NCBI GenBank assembly: GCA_009777615.1
Contig: WRLM01000002.1
Location: 186,001-250,000 of the forward strand
DNA from: Candidatus Methanoplasma cognatum
GTDB taxonomy: Archaea; Thermoplasmatota; Thermoplasmata; Methanomassiliicoccales; Methanomethylophilaceae
Reading direction: 5' to 3'
Length of the DNA stretch: 64,000 nucleotides
Shown here: piece by piece, positions 10,396-58,089 of the stretch
How positions within the stretch are numbered: the first letter of the stretch is position 1
Layout of the letters: each line of letters starts with the position of its first letter
The notes under the pieces: model-generated
Told to the model about the DNA's origin: nothing
What the model saw: the letters and a program-made list of their open reading frames with translations, nothing else
The model's database searches: none
Position numbers and translations under genes: made by a program

Positions 10396-10830
10396 ATGCG
10401 ATCCAAGCAGAAAATAAACTTAAAAAGAGGCATATGTGTGATTGAAGATAGAAGAGAATGGTGGTTTATTTACATTATAACCGTTTTCACTGCTCTGACA
10501 GTCTTCTTTACGTTTATGACCTATGTCTCATTTTATTTTATTCTTTTGGCGTTTATTTTTATGTTTGTGGTTTTTGTCACAGACTGGGTTACGTTTGATA
10601 TGAGCTTTTATAGCTGGTTTAACCAAATAATAAGAGAAGCTGAAGGAAATACAAAGAAAGGAAAAAAAAATAGATGGGAATGGACAATGGAAATTGAAGG
10701 ATATAGAAAAGATGGAACCACGATAAAAAGAACAAAGCGGTCCATTTGGATAGCAGGGACAGTAGGGACAATGATATGCATTCTTTGTTTAGCTCTGATG
10801 ATCTACCTTATCCCTCCGGCACTGTTTTGA
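10396..10830 (+). CDS. Hypothetical membrane protein, AT-rich
   Basis: This 144-residue protein has no family I recognise. Two adjacent aromatic-rich helices (about 23-66) and one C-terminal helix (about 120-142) flank a basic cytosolic loop containing GKKNRWEW. The gene is clearly more AT-rich than its neighbours, which hints at recent acquisition. TATA-like CTTATAAA at 10349-10356 supports the ATG at 10396; a GTG at 10438 preceded by AAGAGG is an alternative start. Confidence 0.5.
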   Translation: MRSKQKINLKRGICVIEDRREWWFIYIITVFTALTVFFTFMTYVSFYFILLAFIFMFVVFVTDWVTFDMSFYSWFNQIIREAEGNTKKGKKNRWEWTMEIEGYRKDGTTIKRTKRSIWIAGTVGTMICILCLALMIYLIPPALF

Positions 10831-19214: not shown

Positions 19215-19760
19215 TCACAGGTCAAAACCCATCTCGGCGATCCTGAGCCTTGGGCGCTGGCTTTCCAGATAATGGTATACGGTGGCATGCTCGCTTCCGT
19301 TCAGGATGAGTTCCACCGCATGTTTTGCTACCGGAAGGCTGATGGAATTCCCGATCAGGGATACGGTGTTCCCGTACACCGACATGTAGCAGCCGGTAAG
19401 CTCCTCTATGATCCTTCTGGTCTTTCCGCCGGTGCCTATAAGCCTTCCTCTTACCCTCCCCAGCTGGTTGGGTCTGCTCCCGGCAACATCCTTCAGGTCT
19501 ATCGTTTCGAAGTATTCGTCATCCTCGAAAAGCCGTACCGCTTTGTCAGGGTTGAATCCTCTCCCTATTGCTTTGATCACATCCATGATCTTGAGGGCCA
19601 TAAGGGGGTCGGTGCCTTCGGCCTCTTCATTGAAAAGGACCAGTCCTTCGGCGTCGATATCCAGCTTTATCCCGGATGTCTTTTCCAGCATCTTCTTTGT
19701 TTCGCCGCTCTTTCCTATGAGTGTACCGACGCGGTCATTCGGTATTTTTACAGACCTCAT
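19215..19760 (-). CDS. KH-domain RNA-processing protein (Dim2/Krr1-like)
   Basis: The 181-residue protein holds two KH domains. GKSGETKK (about 17-24) marks the first and GTGGKTRR (about 108-115) the second. Archaeal relatives of eukaryotic Dim2/Pno1 bind pre-rRNA near the 3' end of 16S. That fits its position between RIO1, another small-subunit maturation factor, and Pus10. The ATG overlaps the RIO1 stop by 4 bases. Confidence 0.9.
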   Translation of the reverse strand: MRSVKIPNDRVGTLIGKSGETKKMLEKTSGIKLDIDAEGLVLFNEEAEGTDPLMALKIMDVIKAIGRGFNPDKAVRLFEDDEYFETIDLKDVAGSRPNQLGRVRGRLIGTGGKTRRIIEELTGCYMSVYGNTVSLIGNSISLPVAKHAVELILNGSEHATVYHYLESQRPRLRIAEMGFDL

Positions 19761-20554
19761 TCCTCATCCTCTCCGTCGTCATCCGTACCGTTCAATATTT
19801 CATCCATTATCTTATCGGGACTTATCACGTCCGCCCCTCTGTTCCTGAAGAAACGGTTGACGTTGTTGATGTCCCTTATCAATAGGTCCTTGGCGTTGAA
19901 AAAGTCATTGGCCATGGCCTGTCCGCAGTCTATCAGTATAGGCTGGCCTTCCCAGACCAGCACGTTGTACTCGCTGAGATCCCCGTGTACAAGGTGGGCG
20001 TCCTTCCACCCGTCTATGATGAAAGAGAGGACCTCGTCGTACATCTCCGTCGGATCATCCAGCGTAACATCCTTAAGCTGGGGGGCCGGACCGCTCTCCC
20101 CGCCTATGTATTCCATCAGAAGGCAGTTCTTGTCAAATGTTATCGGCTCCGGCACGGGCAGTCCCGCCTCGGCGTATCTCTGGAGGTTCTTGAACTCCTT
20201 GTTGGCCCACGCGTAGATCAGTTTCCACCGGTTGCCGGCAACACCCCTGAACCTGGGGTCGCCCTCGATATATCTGCCGACGTTCTTGAAGGTCGACGTG
20301 GAGGTCCTGAAGATCTTGAGTGCGACCGGGTCCCCGTCCTCGTCCGTAGCGTAGAAAACGTTCCCTTCCTTTCCGGTGGAGATCGGATACTGCACAGTGT
20401 CGATGAAACCGCTTTTCATGAGCTCATAGATGGTCATCAGAGTCTTCTTGTCAAAGACCTCTCCGTCCGTCTGGCGCTCGTCACCCGTCTTATTGGTCTT
20501 CAGGGCGTCTACGCGCTGTTCAAGATAAGAGAATTTCTCGTCGTAGGAGGGCAG
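19757..20554 (-). CDS. rio1: RIO1-type serine protein kinase, probable CTG start
   Basis: RIO1 is an atypical kinase for late small-subunit maturation. Visible motifs: the nucleotide loop STGKEGNVF, ALKIF, the catalytic loop VHGDLSEYNVL and the metal-binding LIDCGQA. The first in-frame ATG (20437) would remove the conserved N-terminal helix (YDEKFSYLEQRV ... GEVFDKKTLMTIYEL), which is encoded upstream in frame. Between the in-frame stop (20557) and 20437 there is no ATG, GTG or TTG. CTG at 20554-20552 lies 6 bases after GGTGGTG and gives 265 residues, a normal RIO1 length. It begins 17 bases after eIF1A. Confidence 0.85.
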   Translation of the reverse strand: MPSYDEKFSYLEQRVDALKTNKTGDERQTDGEVFDKKTLMTIYELMKSGFIDTVQYPISTGKEGNVFYATDEDGDPVALKIFRTSTSTFKNVGRYIEGDPRFRGVAGNRWKLIYAWANKEFKNLQRYAEAGLPVPEPITFDKNCLLMEYIGGESGPAPQLKDVTLDDPTEMYDEVLSFIIDGWKDAHLVHGDLSEYNVLVWEGQPILIDCGQAMANDFFNAKDLLIRDINNVNRFFRNRGADVISPDKIMDEILNGTDDDGEDEE

Positions 20555-20571
20555 TCAGAACACCACCGTTT

Positions 20572-20901
20572 TCAAAAGATGTCCAGGGCCGCCGGCACCT
20601 TACCCTTCTTGCTGAGGTTCACCGCCTGGGTCCTGGTATATCTGAACCTCACGTCACATTTGTCGGGCTGGAAATCCCAGAGCGAGACGATCAGCAGGTC
20701 CCCCTCGCGTATCCACATCCTCTTCTTGATCTTGCCCGGGATGCGGCCTACTCTGGATACTCCGTCCTCGCACATCACCTTTATCTTTGATGCACCGAGC
20801 AGCTGGTCGGCTATTCCGAACATCTCGCCTTCTTTTATGTTCGGCATACGTACGCGTGATACGTCTTCCTCTGTGCTCTCAAACGGCTCTTCTGCGGGCA
20901 T
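20572..20901 (-). CDS. eif1a: Translation initiation factor eIF-1A
   Basis: The 109-residue OB-fold factor stimulates initiator tRNA and mRNA binding to the small subunit. MCEDGVSRVGRIPGKIKKRMWIREGD is the S1-like core in outline; only its key KIKKRMWI segment is diagnostic. The start at 20901 is preferred because GGAGATCA precedes it. It heads the eIF1A-RIO1-KH-Pus10-L21e-RpoF-DUF655-KsgA operon, with a TATA-like TTTAAA near 20940. Confidence 0.94.
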   Translation of the reverse strand: MPAEEPFESTEEDVSRVRMPNIKEGEMFGIADQLLGASKIKVMCEDGVSRVGRIPGKIKKRMWIREGDLLIVSLWDFQPDKCDVRFRYTRTQAVNLSKKGKVPAALDIF

Positions 20902-21035
20902 TTGATGATCTCCGTGCAGGCCATGTAACATTAATCTCTTTTAAATGTTATCCTAAGACGCATAAACTTTTTATCAAAACAATGCGGGTCCGCAACAAAA
21001 AACTATTTTAACCATATCAATAATGAGCGCCGTAA

Positions 21036-29432: not shown

Positions 29433-30713
29433 ACGAAGGAGAAAAACTACAGATTCGAGACCAAACAATTGCACATCGGGCAGGAAGACCCTGACCCGGC
29501 GACCGACTCGAGGGCCGTGCCCATCTACGCGACTACCTCATACGTGTTCAAGGACTGCGCCCAAGCGGAAGGGAGGTTCGCTCTGAGGGAGGGCGGCAAC
29601 ATATACGCAAGGCTCATGAACCCGACATCGGATGTGTTCGAAAAACGCATAGCAGCCCTCGAAGGGGGCGCGGCCGCCATCGCGACATCTTCCGGCGCGG
29701 CCGCCATCACGTACGCGGTGCAGAACATAGCGCTCGCGGGCCACAACATAGTGTCGGACAGGAGGGTCTATGGCGGCACGTACAACCTGTTCGCCCACAC
29801 GCTCAGGGACTTCGGCATCACGGCGAAATTCGTAGACGGCGACGACCCGGCGAACTTCGAGGAAGCAATCGATAGCGGCACAAGGGCGTTGTTCATAGAG
29901 ACGCTGGGCAATCCTAACTCCACCATCGTCGACGTGGACGCGGTAGCGGCCGTGGCGCACAGACACGGCATACCGCTCATCGTCGACAATACATTTGCGA
30001 CGCCGTACCTGTTCCGCCCGATCGAGCACGGGGCGGATGTGGTCGTCCACTCGGCGACAAAATTCATAGGCGGGCACGGGACGGCCCTGGGCGGTGTGAT
30101 AATAGACGCGGGCAGGTTCGACTGGGCGTCGAACGACAAATTCCCGGGGCTCTCGCGGCCGAACCCGAGCTACCACGGAATCGTGTTCACCGACGCGGCA
30201 GGGGACATCGCATACATCGTGAAGGCCCGTGTCACTTTGATGAGGGACACTGGCTCAACCCTCAGCCCGTTCCATTCTTTTCTGTTCCTGCAGGGGCTCG
30301 AGACTCTGTCGTTGAGGATGGAGAGGCATGTGCAGAACACGTTGAAAGTGGTCCGATACCTGTCGAGACACCCGCGGGCGGAGAGGGTGAACCACCCCTC
30401 GCTCGAGACTCACCCCGACAGAAAGCTCTACGAGAAATATTTCCCTGACGGGGCGGGCTCGATATTCACCTTTGAGATCAGGGGCGGTGAGAAGGAGGCG
30501 AAAGATTTCATCGACAGGTTGGAGCTGTTCTCGTTGCTCGCCAATGTCGCTGACAGCAAATCCCTCGTCATACATCCAGCGAGCACGACACACTCCCAGC
30601 TCAGCGAGGCCGAGATGCTAGAACAGGGCATAAAACCCAACACGGTGAGGCTGTCGATCGGCACAGAACACATCGACGACATAATGAACGACCTGGAGCA
30701 GGCCCTCCAATGA
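29433..30713 (+). CDS. O-acetylhomoserine sulfhydrylase, probable ACG start
   Basis: This PLP enzyme makes homocysteine from O-acetylhomoserine and sulfide. The Cys/Met-metabolism motifs are [22 protein letters not shown] and the PLP lysine in [13 protein letters not shown]. The first usable start codon by ordinary rules (TTG 29469) falls inside the conserved N-terminus [10 protein letters not shown]. The frame is open upstream to ACG 29433, which lies 7 bases after GGAGG and gives 426 residues, the normal family length. A TATA-like TATTTATATA and a possible Rrf2 site (ATAGGAATTATATG) lie at about 29386-29405. Confidence 0.88.
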
Positions 30714-37043: not shown

Positions 37044-38060
37044 GTGTCTGGAATAAAGGTCGGGATAAACGGTTACGGCACGATCGGCAAGAGAGTCGCG
37101 GCCGCAGTAAGCAAACAGGACGATATGGAGGTCGCGGGGGTAACGAAGACGAGACCCACTTTCGAAGCGCGGACCGCCGTCGATAGAGGGTTCGATCTCT
37201 ATGTCCCCGAGGGGAGTCTCAAGACCTTCGGCGACGCCGGGGTCCCGGTCAAGGGAACGATCAAAGACCTTTACAAAGCCGCAGATATAATCGTGGACTG
37301 TACACCCGGCGATGTGGGGGAGACGTACAAGGCCGAATACGAAGCGGCGGGGAAAAAAGCGATCTTCCAGGGCGGGGAGGACCACAGCCTTACCGGCATA
37401 TCCTTCAACTCCACCGCCAACTACAGCGAGTCATGGGGCGCTCAGTTCTCCAGAGTGGTATCATGTAATACGACGGGGCTGCTGAGGACCCTGAACCCGA
37501 TAGACAGGTCGATAAAGATAAAGAACGTCCACGCCACACTCATCAGGAGGGCGGCGGATCCCGGCGACAGCAGGAGCGGCCCGATAAACGGGCTGGAACC
37601 GTCGGTGAAACTGCCCACCCATCACGGGCCGGACGTGAAGAGCGTGATGCCCTGGCTGAACATCAGCACGATGGCCGTCAAGGCGTCCACGACCATCATG
37701 CATCTCCATACGGTCGCGGCCGAGCTCGAGAGGGAATCCAAAACAAGCGAGATATTGGACATAATGCGCGCATCCCCCCGCGTGATGCTTGTGAACAGCG
37801 GCAGCGGAGTGAAAGGCACGCCCGAGATAATGGAGCTGGCAAAGGATCTCGGAAGGGACAGGTCCGACATGTACGAGGCGGTAGTATGGGAGGATGGCGT
37901 GAAAGTGGTCGGTAACATGCTTTATTATTACCAGGCCGTGCACCAGGAAGCGGACGTCGTGCCGGAGAACATCGACTGCATAAGGTCCATGTGCAAACTG
38001 CAAGAAGACGCAGCCGCATCAATATCTAAAACGAACAAAGCTCTCGGAATAAAAAAGTAA
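37044..38060 (+). CDS. gap: Glyceraldehyde-3-phosphate dehydrogenase, archaeal type II
   Basis: This 338-residue enzyme interconverts glyceraldehyde-3-phosphate and 1,3-bisphosphoglycerate. The Rossmann loop is GINGYGTIGKRV and the catalytic Cys lies in VVSCNTTGLLR, as in archaeal GAPDH. The start is GTG 37044, 5 bases after GAGGT. PGK follows 10 bases later, coupling consecutive glycolytic steps in one operon. Confidence 0.95.
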   Translation: MSGIKVGINGYGTIGKRVAAAVSKQDDMEVAGVTKTRPTFEARTAVDRGFDLYVPEGSLKTFGDAGVPVKGTIKDLYKAADIIVDCTPGDVGETYKAEYEAAGKKAIFQGGEDHSLTGISFNSTANYSESWGAQFSRVVSCNTTGLLRTLNPIDRSIKIKNVHATLIRRAADPGDSRSGPINGLEPSVKLPTHHGPDVKSVMPWLNISTMAVKASTTIMHLHTVAAELERESKTSEILDIMRASPRVMLVNSGSGVKGTPEIMELAKDLGRDRSDMYEAVVWEDGVKVVGNMLYYYQAVHQEADVVPENIDCIRSMCKLQEDAAASISKTNKALGIKK

Positions 38061-38070
38061 GGGTGAGAAC

Positions 38071-39306
38071 ACGAGAGAATTCAACACCCTGGAAGATTTC
38101 AATTTCAAGGACAGGACGGTCCTGCTGAGAGTGGACATAAACTGCCCTCTCGATAAAAAGACGCTAAAGATACTGAACGACGCGAGGATAAGGAGCATCA
38201 TTCCCACCGTAAGGGAATTGGTCGGGAAAAGGGCCAAGGTCGCGATCCTTGCGCACCAGAGCAGAAAGGGCGCATGGGACTTCATCGGCCTGGAGCAGCA
38301 TGCCGCTCTGCTTTCTAAAAACCTCAATGCGCCGGTCCGGTATGTGAACGATATCATCGGAGACGAGGCCAAGAGGATGATATCGCAGATGGGGCCGGGA
38401 GATGTTCTTCTGCTGGGAAACGTAAGGGAGCTGGAATGCGAGGCCGTCACGGCGGAGATGAGCCAGCACGCCGAGGCGGAACTGGTCGCGGAACTTCTCC
38501 CCTTCATTGATTACTATGTTTGCGACGCGTTCGGGGCGTCACACCGCGCGCAGTGCTCTCTGGTGGGGTTCCCCGTCAAGCTGCCCTCGGCGTCGGGGAG
38601 GCTGATGGCCAGGGAGCTGTATGCCCTCGAGACGATATTCGACAAGCCGAGGCGGCCGTCCGTATTCATCCTGGGCGGGGCGAAGTTCGGGGATGTTCCC
38701 TTTATGATAGACAGCGTCCTTAAGAACGGCGTCGCCGACACCGTGATCGTAGCGGGACTTGCGGGGAACGCCTTCCTGCTGGCAAGAGGCGTCGATATAG
38801 GGGAGGCCAGCAGCAGGGTGCTCGCCGGCGAGCTTACCGAAGAGAATTTCCAGGCGGCAAGGGACGTCCTCAGCAAATACGGTCAGAAGATACTGCTGCC
38901 GGTGGACGTCGCGGTGGAAAGGGACGGCAGGAGGGTCTGCGTGAACACGGGAGACATGCCGACGCCCGAACCGGCGCTGGATATCGGAGATCAGTCCATA
39001 GAGAAATTCAGAAAGGTCATACTTTCCTCCAAAACATCGTTCATGTCAGGCCCCGCAGGGATGTTCGAGAAGCCAGGATTCGAAGCGGGAACGAAACAGC
39101 TCATGATGGCGATGGTCGAAAGCAAAGGACTGTCGGTCCTCGGCGGGGGACACACAGCGGGCGCCGCGGAAAGGTTCGACCTGGCCGACAGGGTGGCATA
39201 CGTAAGCACGGGAGGCGGCGCACTGGAGACATTCCTTCTGCATGAACCGCTGCCCGTGATAGAGGCCCTGAGATACTCAAAGGAGAGGTTCGGGCCGGTT
39301 CACTGA
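38071..39306 (+). CDS. pgk: Phosphoglycerate kinase, probable ACG start
   Basis: PGK transfers phosphate between 1,3-bisphosphoglycerate and ADP. LLRVDINCP and LAHQSRKG bind substrate, FILGGAKFGD and LGGGHTAG bind nucleotide. The conserved N-terminus (REFNTLEDFNFKDRTVLLRVDIN) is encoded upstream of the first ordinary start (GTG 38131), which would delete the substrate-binding Arg-Val-Asp-x-Asn. ACG 38071 sits four bases after GGTGA, the spacing used by other genes here, and gives 411 residues, a normal length. The upstream in-frame stop is at 38050. Confidence 0.9.
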   Translation, partial: TREFNTLEDFNFKDRTVLLRVDINCPLDKKTLKILNDARIRSIIPTVRELVGKRAKVAILAHQSRKGAWDFIGLEQHAALLSKNLNAPVRYVNDIIGDEAKRMISQMGPGDVLLLGNVRELECEAVTAEMSQHAEAELVAELLPFIDYYVCDAFGASHRAQCSLVGFPVKLPSASGRLMARELYALETIFDKPRRPSVFILGGAKFGDVPFMIDSVLKNGVADTVIVAGLAGNAFLLARGVDIGEASSRVLAGELTEENFQAARDVLSKYGQKILLPVDVAVERDGRRVCVNTGDMPTPEPALDIGDQSIEKFRKVILSSKTSFMSGPAGMFEKPGFEAGTKQLMMAMVESKGLSVLGGGHTAGAAERFDLADRVAYVSTGGGALETFLLHEPLPVIEALRYSKERFGPVH

Positions 39307-47796: not shown

Positions 47797-48660
47797 GTGG
47801 AGACGGAAGAGATACTCGGGCTTTCTGCGTTCGTCATAACGATGGCGGTGCTGGCATCGGCAAGCATAAGCGATTGGAAGGAAAGAGAGGTCTCAGACAG
47901 GCACTGGATGGTGCTGGGCATCGCCGGATTGATCTTTGCTGTTTCCTACTCGATCTACCTGACCGGGTTCAGGTGGGAGTACGTTTGTCTTGCCGCAGGA
48001 ACGGCAATGATCATTCTGGACATCCTCTGGGACAGAGAGTTCAATCCGCTCGCGTTCTATGCCGTTATGGCTTTGCTTTTCGTCGTGCCTCTTTATCCGA
48101 ATATGTCCGAGCATATCATGATCGCGTGGGCCTCGATACCCCTGTGCTACCTTATCTATGTGGGGATGTACATTCTCGGAATAGTGCGGGGCGGGGCGGA
48201 CGTGAAGTGTCTGGTCACGCTTTCGGTCATGTTCCCTCTGTACCCAAGCTTCCTCGGGCTGCCGCTGGTGGACATACCCGGCAATATTGCCAGTCAGATA
48301 TTCGTTCTTTCAATATCTGTCCTGTTCCTGGCCGCGGTGATGACCGTTCCAGTTATAATGTACTTCATAGCGAGGAATGCAAAAGCAGGCGGTCCGAGCA
48401 AAAGGATGTTCTCAGGATACAGGATGGAGATATCGAAAGCGGAGAGTTCCGATGTCTGGCCCATCGAGGACATAATAGACGGCGAGCCGGTATCCATAAA
48501 GATACCTAAGGACGAGGACATACCAGGCATATACGCAAGGCTCAGGGAAGCCGGACGCGAGGAGGTCTGGGTGACCCCCATGATACCTTTTGTGATAATG
48601 ATCGCCGCCGCAACGGCGGCGATAGTTCTGATAGGCAATCCGCTGTTCCTCATATTTTGA
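47797..48660 (+). CDS. A24 family prepilin/prearchaellin peptidase
   Basis: The 287-residue polytopic aspartic protease cleaves class III signal peptides of type IV pilin-like proteins. The two catalytic Asp are visible in SISDWKEREV (D26 region) and GGADVKCLV. A cytosolic domain near 195-250 and a last membrane helix follow. The start is GTG 47797. The secreted pair at 8158 and 9225 are plausible substrates. Its 3' end overlaps that of the convergent radical SAM gene by 11 bases. Confidence 0.85.
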   Translation: METEEILGLSAFVITMAVLASASISDWKEREVSDRHWMVLGIAGLIFAVSYSIYLTGFRWEYVCLAAGTAMIILDILWDREFNPLAFYAVMALLFVVPLYPNMSEHIMIAWASIPLCYLIYVGMYILGIVRGGADVKCLVTLSVMFPLYPSFLGLPLVDIPGNIASQIFVLSISVLFLAAVMTVPVIMYFIARNAKAGGPSKRMFSGYRMEISKAESSDVWPIEDIIDGEPVSIKIPKDEDIPGIYARLREAGREEVWVTPMIPFVIMIAAATAAIVLIGNPLFLIF

Positions 48661-49642
48661 TGTGCATCCTGTGTCTGCACTGGGCGCAGCGGTCGCCGTT
48701 CAGCGCCACAAGGTCGACGAGATACCCCGTGCGGCGGATCACCAGCGCCCCGCAGTTGGGGCAGTACGTGTCCGAGGCGTCGTCGGACAGCACGTTCCCC
48801 ACATAGACATACTCGAGCCCGCACTCCATCGCGATCGCTCTGCACATATGCAGCGTCTCCAGGGGAGTGATGGGGACGTCCAGCATCTTGTTGTCGGGAT
48901 GGAATCTTGAGAAATGTACGGGGGTCTCCGGGGACAGCTTGTCGCGTACCCACGAGGAGAACTGCTCTATCTCTCGTGCAGAGTCATTGTATCCAGGTAT
49001 GACCAGGTATGTGAGCTCCAGGTGCACCCCCTCATGGCTCACTATCTCGGAGGACCTCATGACGTCATCCAGATGCGCGCCGCAGACCTTGGTATAGAAT
49101 TCGTCGGTGAAACCTTTGATATCTATGTTCATCGCGTCGGTCACTCCGCACAGCTCTTTCAGGGGATCCTCGCAGATCAGGCCGTTGCTCACCAGCACAC
49201 ATCTCAGATCGGGCGCTTCCTCCACTATATCCATGATATACTCGAACCAGATCACCGGCTCGTTGTAAGTGAATGCGATCGCGTCGAACCTCTCTTTCCT
49301 GCAGAAGGCGACGATCTCCTCCGGAGACTCGTAGGTGGTGCGCTTCCTGCCGGAAGGGGACATGGATATCGCATAGTTCTGGCAGTGTCTGCAGGACATG
49401 TTGCATCCGATCCCTCCGATGGAGAATATCTTGGTCTTTGGGTAATAATGGTAGAACGGCTTCTTTTCGATGGGGTCTACGCTGAAGGACGAGACCTTAC
49501 CGTAATTGTTGGCGATCAGTTTATCCTCCTCGCCTTTTCTGGACAAGCATACTCCGAATCCCTCCGTCGGTATCCTGCACCTGTGCGGGCACAGGTCGCA
49601 GATGTACCTTTCACCGTCCCGGTGGTAATGTCTAGCTTCAAT
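48650..49642 (-). CDS. AmmeMemoRadiSam radical SAM enzyme, probable ATT start
   Basis: The radical SAM cluster motif is CNMSCRHCQNY, and FTYNEPVIWFEY, NIDIKGF and the C-terminal CPNCGA/CAQC zinc site match the AmmeMemoRadiSam system enzyme (often named AmrS). The conserved N-terminal Cys cluster (ICDLCPHRCRI ... GVCLSRKG) is encoded upstream of the first ordinary start, TTG 49546. The frame remains open to ATT 49642, where homologues begin (M-E-A-R-x-Y), giving 330 residues. No clear Shine-Dalgarno is seen; the ThiL stop is 7 bases upstream. AMMECR1 and Memo genes are not in this window. Confidence 0.82.
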   Translation of the reverse strand: MEARHYHRDGERYICDLCPHRCRIPTEGFGVCLSRKGEEDKLIANNYGKVSSFSVDPIEKKPFYHYYPKTKIFSIGGIGCNMSCRHCQNYAISMSPSGRKRTTYESPEEIVAFCRKERFDAIAFTYNEPVIWFEYIMDIVEEAPDLRCVLVSNGLICEDPLKELCGVTDAMNIDIKGFTDEFYTKVCGAHLDDVMRSSEIVSHEGVHLELTYLVIPGYNDSAREIEQFSSWVRDKLSPETPVHFSRFHPDNKMLDVPITPLETLHMCRAIAMECGLEYVYVGNVLSDDASDTYCPNCGALVIRRTGYLVDLVALNGDRCAQCRHRMHIKI

Positions 49643-49649
49643 GTTCGGA

Positions 49650-50591
49650 TTAATGCCTGCCGTTTCCCATCGCCTCTCTTCTGTCCCCGTAGTTTATGTA
49701 GGGCGCATCGTCGTTCGTAACTATACCGATTACGGAAAAATCCACGTCCTGAGAGTACAGTGCTTCCATTTCCTTCTTGTCGAATGTGAAAAGCAGTTCG
49801 TAATCTCCGCCCCAATAAAGCATCATCTCTTCTTTGGTGACGCCGGTCTCGGATGATACGAGGTCCACGCCGTCCCCTTCCGGCAGGAAGGCCATGTGGA
49901 TCTCCATCCCGACACGGCTGGCTCTGCAGACGCTCTTCGCCCCCTCCGCAAGCCCGTCCGACAGATCGATGCAGGAGGTCACCGCACCGGATGACGACAG
50001 GGCAATTCCGTCCCCGACGCGGGGTATGGGCGTCATGAGGGAGGAAGAGGACACATAGCCGTCTAGGTCATTCTCCCCCGCGAAGAATCCGGCCGCCGCC
50101 GACCCCAGCGAACCGGTGACCGCCACCACGTCCCCGGGCATCGCGCCTGATCTGAGCATGGGAGTCCTCCCGTTCATAGAACCGATCGCTGTGCACGACA
50201 CGGCTCCGCACCCGAACTTGGTGTCCCCGCCATATATGTGGGCTCCGAAAGATCCGGCGCATTTGTCCATTCCGGCCATGATATCGTACAGAGAATCGGC
50301 ATCGAGCTCCGGCGGCATAGTGAGGGCGGCAAGCAGACCGACGGGCTCCGCGCCCATGGCGGCCAGATCGCTTATGTTGACCGCCGCGGCCATCCACCCG
50401 AACTCCTCGTAGGTCATTCCTTTAGGAAAATGTCTCTCGAACGTTACGCTGTCCGTGCAGGCGACCGTGTCCCCGCCGGACGAGGGGATGAGAGCGGAGT
50501 CGTCCCCAGGGCCCAGGCCCGGCGACCGCCGGATTATGCTCTGAATGACCCGGATAAGCTCTCTTTCTCCCAATTCTTTCAAAGAAACCAT
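49650..50591 (-). CDS. thiL: Thiamine-monophosphate kinase
   Basis: This 313-residue enzyme phosphorylates thiamine monophosphate to the diphosphate. GPGDDSALI, FERHFPKGMTYEEFGWMAAAVNISDLAAMGA in outline, GGDTKFG and DLSDGL are family motifs. ATG 50591 is chosen because homologues start with the L-x-E-L-G-E-R helix. Confidence 0.92.
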   Translation of the reverse strand: MVSLKELGERELIRVIQSIIRRSPGLGPGDDSALIPSSGGDTVACTDSVTFERHFPKGMTYEEFGWMAAAVNISDLAAMGAEPVGLLAALTMPPELDADSLYDIMAGMDKCAGSFGAHIYGGDTKFGCGAVSCTAIGSMNGRTPMLRSGAMPGDVVAVTGSLGSAAAGFFAGENDLDGYVSSSSLMTPIPRVGDGIALSSSGAVTSCIDLSDGLAEGAKSVCRASRVGMEIHMAFLPEGDGVDLVSSETGVTKEEMMLYWGGDYELLFTFDKKEMEALYSQDVDFSVIGIVTNDDAPYINYGDRREAMGNGRH

Positions 50592-57048: not shown

Positions 57049-58089
57049 TCATTCCTCTGCGGCAACGGCCATTTCCGCTTTTCTCTTTTCCTTCAGCGCC
57101 CTGGCGACCCTTTTGCTCAAGACCCTCTCGTTGATGATCCTCATGTACATGGCGTCATGTTCCAGCAGAGGCGATGCGGATATTATCGTCGCTTCCGGCT
57201 TGAGGTCGCAGAGCGCCTCCGCCAGAGGCTCGAACCTCAGGTCCCCCTTCTTTATCGGAGTAAGCCTTTTTTCGTTCCCGTCGCTGTATTCGACGCCGGC
57301 GAAGGCCGTGTGGATCATGTCCTTGCAATATGGTTCGACCTGCTGCAGAAGCTCAAGGAAGTCCTCCGATTCCATCAGAGAGCCGTTGGTCCTCGAATGG
57401 TGGTGGGGGAAGTTGATCACCGGAACGACCCCGTCAATGGAGTCGCAGAGGTCCAGCACCTGGTCCAGCGAGCCGTATACCGATTGATGGCCGGTTATCT
57501 CCACGCCGAGTTTCGGCCTGATCCTGTTGTCTTTCCACCAATCCATTATCGCCGCGACGTTCTCTTCGATGTTGGCATCTATCTCCTCTTCGGGAAGCTT
57601 TCCCGTGTAAAGGCCCAGGTTGGTGACCACGACATCTCCGTCAAGGGCGTTCACGATGGTCGCCGCCCTTCTTATGCTGTCGATGCACGATCCGGTCAGC
57701 TCGTTGTTCGAACCCAGGTCCATATAGTATGGGGTGTGCAGCGATATGTTAACGTCCAGTCTCTTTGCTATGTTCCCGATGCCGTAAAGTTCGCCGAAAT
57801 TGTTGGTTATTCCTGACGACATATAGATGAGGCCGTCTTCTTCCTCTATGACGGTCTCCGGATCGGATATCAGCTCACCCCCCCTCTCCAGCTCTATGAC
57901 AAAGCCGTCTGTGACATCTCTGATCCTGATGCCCACTTCCTCCTCGTTCGGATATCTTCCGTACACACCCGCCCTCACCATCTGGATCCCGAGAGCGTTA
58001 AGGCTCAGGTTGTGCACGTCCTCTATCCCGTCTTTCAGTGTTCGCCCTTTACAGGACAATGGTATTCCGGCCGGTCCGAATCTTATCAG
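57049..58089 (-). CDS. AP endonuclease family 2 TIM-barrel protein, probable CTG start
   Basis: This Endonuclease IV/xylose-isomerase-like barrel is usually described as a deoxyribonuclease IV-like protein of archaea. HTPYYMDL, LGVEITGHQS and INFPHHHSR include likely metal ligands. The conserved N-terminus (IRFGPAGIPLSCKGRT) is coded upstream of the first ordinary start, TTG 58059, which would cut it off. CTG 58089-58087 lies four bases after GGTGA, as for other genes here, and gives 346 residues. TATTTAATA-type sequence near 58126-58133 is a likely TATA box. It is followed after 16 bases by hxlB. Confidence 0.82.
   Translation of the reverse strand: MIRFGPAGIPLSCKGRTLKDGIEDVHNLSLNALGIQMVRAGVYGRYPNEEEVGIRIRDVTDGFVIELERGGELISDPETVIEEEDGLIYMSSGITNNFGELYGIGNIAKRLDVNISLHTPYYMDLGSNNELTGSCIDSIRRAATIVNALDGDVVVTNLGLYTGKLPEEEIDANIEENVAAIMDWWKDNRIRPKLGVEITGHQSVYGSLDQVLDLCDSIDGVVPVINFPHHHSRTNGSLMESEDFLELLQQVEPYCKDMIHTAFAGVEYSDGNEKRLTPIKKGDLRFEPLAEALCDLKPEATIISASPLLEHDAMYMRIINERVLSKRVARALKEKRKAEMAVAAEE

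Follow-up and report, generated by a model that had tools for sequence, protein, structure and literature searches.

The phosphoglycerate kinase (PGK) gene in the window, the 64,000-nucleotide stretch of DNA analysed here, is predicted to start at an ACG codon at position 38071. We put at roughly 87% the probability that a ribosome placed by a Shine-Dalgarno (SD) motif begins this gene at the ACG with a CAU initiator tRNA and methionine, and that the ACG replaced an ATG at the base of the genus and has since been kept. The sequence-only reading had already proposed this start, and comparison with relatives supports it: the codon matches the position of their ATG, lies at the expected distance from the SD motif and recurs across the genus in separately assembled genomes.

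The window belongs to a 1.62 Mb archaeal genome of the genus Candidatus Methanoplasma. These organisms are methane-making Methanomassiliicoccales of the termite gut. PGK was identified by its match to PF00162 (E = 6.5e-107) and is single-copy in this genome.

The PGK start region

The PGK frame is open from a TAA at 38050, and its earliest ATG, GTG or TTG is the GTG at 38131, inside the conserved RVDIN motif. Reading the frame thus bore out the earlier claim that no standard start lies between these two points. The codons AAA AGT AAG GGT GAG AAC lead to ACG 38071, which is followed by AGA GAA TTC AAC ACC. The predicted N-terminal peptide, from the ACG-coded residue or just after it, is KDFNTLEDFNFK. 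The ACG does stand four bases 3' of GGTGA (38062-38066), as had been noted, and a GTG at 38063 within the SD motif (GGGTGAG) is out of the PGK frame in this genome. Table 1 lists the features of the window.

Table 1. Features of the window discussed in the text.
Feature	Position	Strand	Basis
RIO1 kinase gene, CTG start 20554-20552 directly after an in-frame TGA	19757..20554	-	PF01163
aIF1A gene, directly upstream of RIO1	20572..20931	-	TIGR00523, alignment
O-acetylhomoserine sulfhydrylase-like gene, ACG start 29433-29435	29433..30713	+	PF01053
Type II glyceraldehyde-3-phosphate dehydrogenase (GAPDH) gene; stop TAA ends at 38060, 10 nt before the ACG	37044..38060	+	TIGR01546 (E = 3.7e-134), ORF
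Shine-Dalgarno motif GGTGAG	38062..38067	+	Sequence; duplex energy -8.5 versus a median of -3.7 at random sites
ACG start codon of PGK (predicted)	38071..38073	+	Comparative evidence
Phosphoglycerate kinase gene, 411 codons and stop	38071..39306	+	PF00162
First in-frame ATG/GTG/TTG of PGK, V of RVDIN, too late for a start	38131..38133	+	GTG
AmmeMemoRadiSam radical-SAM gene, probable ACG start 49663-49661	48650..49663	-	TIGR04337
AP_endonuc_2 family gene, CTG start 58089-58087	57049..58089	-	PF01261

GGTGAG lies at the usual distance for a ribosome-binding signal, and its energy (-8.5) is matched in strength by 27% of first-ATG genes. The SD energies of all ACG and CTG genomes of the genus fall between -7.9 and -9.3, and that of the one ATG genome (G004) is -4.0. 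Codon and SD strength may therefore trade off, a single case but a telling one. The motif by itself is no proof and the case rests on comparison, because GGTGANNNNACG has a single occurrence in the window, where chance predicts 2.1, and is not enriched; GGTGANNNNATG occurs five times against 2.1 expected. In an SD-anchored census of 353 ORFs of the sample, ATG accounts for 27 of the 81 in-frame codons that follow GGTGA at a distance of 4-6 nt and is clearly enriched, while ACG (2) and CTG (3) are too noisy to establish a genome-wide excess. A strong SD precedes 11 of 58 CTG and 9 of 57 ACG codons, compared with a mean of 9%, and GCA and GCT are likewise above the mean.

A search of 41 genomes, the window's own included, matched PGK in 38. 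Thirteen of the 17 genus genomes gave an N-terminal PGK locus and were read; the others had no match (G008, G009), only the C-terminal part (G010) or a 53-residue piece without a locus (G016). The same codon in close relatives, which the sequence-only reading had named as a check, reads ACG in 11 of the 13 species, CTG in one (G001) and ATG in one (G004). Outside the genus, 16 of 17 loci carry ATG at this column and the remaining one (G019) has it one codon upstream; seven further matching rows without a locus are left out of this count. The near-cognate codon therefore occupies the place at which the orthologues, G004 among them, have ATG.

Besides one unrelated bacterium (L074), left out, the 23 named PGK loci comprise 12 repeats of those already counted and ten others. 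Six of these ten have a plain ATG at the start column (RGIG1513, SIG6, Nt197P4bin30, COG_1, Th196P4bin34 and Cus372_bin25), and in UBA328, AS06rmzACSIP_150 and Methanomethylophilus 1R26 an ATG precedes the column by one to three codons. The tenth, SIG2, is of another lineage; its first standard start is the GTG at codon 16. Its start region (L068, near 1992-2000) reads TGA GGT GTT AAG ACG GCC, and either ACG or GTT may be the start.

We propose that the ancestral start was ATG and gave way to ACG near the base of Candidatus Methanoplasma, after which one lineage moved to CTG and another to ATG. On the protein tree the ACG label requires two changes when ACG and ATG rows are considered, and three in the larger set that counts the CTG row. 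More than one path of replacement is conceivable, because the sister records UBA328 and AS06rmzACSIP_150 have GTG-ATG, the ATG falling inside the SD and an ACG following shortly after.

Start codon or threonine codon

The strongest competing explanation, which we nonetheless consider improbable, is that translation starts upstream, at a GTG inside the SD or at another codon, and that the ACG is an ordinary Thr codon. An in-frame GTG does lie three codons 5' of the start column, inside the SD, in six of the 13 genus genomes (G007, G012, G002, G003 and G014 with ACG, G001 with CTG), and the two sister records carry their GTG-ATG. The PGK start is accordingly less sure in these six. Against this, five of the 13 (the window's own genome, G015, G013, the single-contig G006 and G011) have no in-frame ATG, GTG or TTG anywhere between the upstream stop and codon 20, and hence no standard upstream start. 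Of the remaining two, one has an ATG 21 codons upstream and the other has ATG in the start column itself. Nor is the GTG inside the SD preceded by an SD of its own.

What is conserved appears to be the triplet rather than the amino acid. In 11 of 11 ACG genomes the codon ends in G, whereas none of the 89 other fourfold codons of PGK conserved as an amino acid, 10 of them Thr, keeps its third base throughout. Invariance within either subset of these genomes is suggestive, because among ordinary codons 7 of 106 are invariant by chance in the six ACG genomes with an out-of-frame GTG, and 7 of 103 in the other five. The distance between the SD and the ACG varies in the genus between 4 and 5 nt, so that the spacing from GTG to ACG differs by one base; the stretch 5' of the ACG is therefore not translated in the PGK frame.

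Less probable again is C-to-U editing of the mRNA, which would turn ACG into AUG as in chloroplasts. We know of no case of such start-codon editing in archaeal mRNA. The CTG of the G001 PGK gene and the CTG start of RIO1 lie beyond repair by C-to-U. The accessible text of PMC9845219 describes ACG-to-AUG start-codon editing for chloroplasts, whose DNA, like that of PGK, has ACG as the start codon, and states that such editing has not been observed in bacteria. The chloroplast ACG thus becomes AUG in the RNA, which the CTG codons of Methanoplasma cannot.

A start at GTG 38131 would use the earliest standard start codon in the frame and leave the first 20 codons untranslated. We give this very little credence: the protein sequence encoded by those 20 codons is conserved throughout the order, the codons differ from G006 mainly at third positions (1, 5 and 10 by codon position), and a start there would truncate the RVDIN strand, which in the PGK family contributes residues that bind substrate. 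A sequencing or assembly error, with ATG read as ACG, is an unlikely cause of a codon that appears to be kept through the genus; the window genome is one assembly, but the same ACG occurs in 11 species and in separate records that include the single-contig G006, and since no base error would arise again in each of 11 species, this explanation is refuted for PGK, which answers indirectly the raw-read check that the sequence-only reading had named.

Other near-cognate starts

The sequence-only reading had grouped PGK with four further genes as five such cases in the window. They are a mix of ACG and CTG, and one of them had been misplaced. The CTG proposed at 20552 for RIO1 proved to be conserved. 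It is the start codon in 11 of the 15 genus loci with an N-terminus, and the other four have ATG at the same codon; three relatives at order level carry ATG in the same position, others close to it. In the ten full-length CTG genes, with the partial locus L175 left out, each of the 13 conserved Leu columns uses more than one codon, and the third base varies in all 50 fourfold columns.

The RIO1 gene and its conserved CTG come immediately after the gene for aIF1A, which takes part in selecting start codons (20552-20931 on the minus strand of the window). A feedback on initiation fidelity is conceivable for this arrangement.

The radical-SAM gene is the misplaced case. The ATT proposed for it (49642-49640) is the wrong codon, as this column reads I, M, V or R among relatives and its SD energy is -5.7, compared with -9.7 for the ACG at 49663. 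The gene probably starts at this ACG, a reading that draws on the alignment of the genus loci: ACG is found in 15 of 16 (L217, which runs off its contig, is left out), mostly behind GGYGATGG, with ATG in G003. Conservation counts for less here, because the end of the upstream reading frame overlaps this codon and constrains it too. PGK, RIO1 (CTG) and the radical-SAM gene (ACG) would appear to behave alike in the genus.

The two remaining cases are narrower. The CTG of the AP_endonuc_2 gene (58087) occurs here and in G001 only, the other 15 of 17 genus loci having ATG, GTG or TTG. The ACG of the sulfhydrylase-like gene (29433) was confirmed in the window, but its one close orthologue, L126, has ATG. 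A Toprim-thymidylate kinase gene elsewhere in the genome (G000:C1:112543) has an ACG as well, in a single genome and with standard starts in its orthologues. A base error is possible at 29433 and at G000:C1:112543, because each is a single-genome case with standard starts in orthologues.

In L048 (12543-13565) one gene fuses a Toprim-like part with a thymidylate kinase; the two give separate matches in several genus genomes. L136, the sulfhydrylase paralogue of G006, has no ATG, GTG or TTG between its upstream stop at codon -21 and codon 72; in its orthologues an ATG or TTG stands near codons -13 to -34. An 896-codon frame at G000:C2:61575 on the plus strand has coding-like sequence before its first GTG, GGAGGAGATACC followed by ATC GTC ATA AAG. 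From these codons, a start at ATC or ATA is possible.

To gauge frequency within the genus, 89 reciprocal-best pairs between the window genome's sample and G006 were read by hand. Five lack a standard start at the onset of conservation: PGK, RIO1, AP_endonuc_2, the radical-SAM gene and the sulfhydrylase. For the sulfhydrylase the partner is a paralogue, and the AP_endonuc_2 gene and the radical-SAM row of the window's own genome failed the automatic filter. In a control pair from another genus (G030 and G033, 138 pairs), at least one clear CTG start with ATG in the partner and at least one gene ambiguous in both were found among the pairs listed, along with other ambiguous ones. An excess in Methanoplasma over the control genus is not established by this comparison, in which the 89 pairs were hand-read and the control was judged only among the pairs listed.

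The control gene on the minus strand of G030:C1, in a frame with its upstream stop at 10519 of the sample, reads GGGGGTGAGGAT CTG AAC and has ATG in its G033:C69 partner. It likely has a CTG start, which suggests that near-cognate starts are not restricted to Methanoplasma. A 261-codon frame at about 147121 of G030:C1 (plus strand, in L286) and its G033:C17 partner are conserved from FDVYSTTTGLRQISNP, and neither has a standard start 5' of the conserved part.

Initiation machinery, parallels and significance

The initiation machinery of Methanoplasma appears ordinary. A tRNA scan (30 tRNA loci among 44 matches) contained an initiator-type gene at G000:C6:97306 with anticodon CAT, an A1-U72 pair and three G-C pairs in the anticodon stem, the last two of which we take as the marks of an initiator. 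A changed initiator with anticodon CGT reading ACG was rejected: among these 30 loci the initiator-type gene has CAT, and the tRNA with CGT is a Thr tRNA. No loss of aIF1 (SUI1) was found, with PF01253 matched in 37 of 41 genomes and full matches scoring 80-86 bits in the genus and 80-89 elsewhere, judged on scores only. No loss of aIF1A was seen in the alignment of the genus, in which one locus (L159) yielded no readable aIF1A frame in the automated reading.

We propose that the GGTGAG motif would set the ribosome on the mRNA at the ACG, probably assisted by the termination of GAPDH translation 10 nt upstream if the two genes are coupled. The CAU initiator tRNA would then pair with ACG at positions 1 and 3, with a mismatch at position 2, and methionine would be put in. 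The weak codon may hold PGK output below that of GAPDH. The simplest account of these starts is that the normal machinery initiates at a near-cognate codon, enabled by a good SD and, in PGK, RIO1 and the radical-SAM gene, by an upstream gene whose end either overlaps or lies no more than about 20 nt away.

The infC gene of E. coli starts with AUU and is autoregulated by its product IF3. Like PGK, it is a housekeeping gene whose near-cognate start codon would be conserved by selection. It is, however, bacterial, uses another codon and encodes a fidelity factor itself, and we know of no IF3-type feedback for PGK. The closest parallel to infC here is RIO1, with its CTG directly behind aIF1A.

ACG starts are known in yeast ALA1, adeno-associated virus (AAV) VP2 and Sendai virus. 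As proposed for PGK, these are read by the CAU initiator tRNA, but by scanning ribosomes and usually for an extra isoform, whereas initiation at PGK would be SD-led and yield the only product. The Sendai virus ACG is also cited in the accessible text of PMC9845219.

Near-cognate starts have been described in another methanogen. Ribosome profiling of Methanosarcina mazei found about 5% CTG among unannotated small ORFs, and ACG does not occur in the accessible text of that report (PMC11456600). Those CTG starts belong to small unannotated ORFs, as far as this text goes, whereas PGK is a core enzyme whose start is kept through the genus. In the sugar regulators of Enterobacteriaceae, non-ATG starts are conserved and useful to fitness (PMC11445065, searched text). 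The likeness to PGK lies in the conservation of weak start codons; the searched text names GTG, and neither ACG nor CTG occurs in it. A review of archaeal initiation gives AUG, GUG and UUG as start codons, with no occurrence of ACG in its accessible text (PMC7531240). A literature search mostly of sources outside subscription journals found no conserved archaeal ACG start and no non-AUG starts in Methanomassiliicoccales. Near-cognate starts are thus already known, but a genus-wide conserved ACG in an archaeal gene appears, from these partly accessible sources, to be new.

A broader and rather doubtful idea is that start-codon selection in Methanoplasma is relaxed or regulatory, ACG and CTG being stable, heritable starts for what may be several percent of genes. 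PGK and RIO1 would be among them, and initiation fidelity could act back on RIO1 through its place directly behind aIF1A. For annotation, gene callers limited to ATG, GTG and TTG would trim PGK by 20 N-terminal residues, including part of a conserved strand, and would likewise damage the RIO1 and radical-SAM proteins. A single-copy gene of central metabolism that keeps ACG, with its mismatch at the middle base, would provide a natural test of start-codon selection in archaea, and also of whether selection favours weak starts as a means of setting protein levels.
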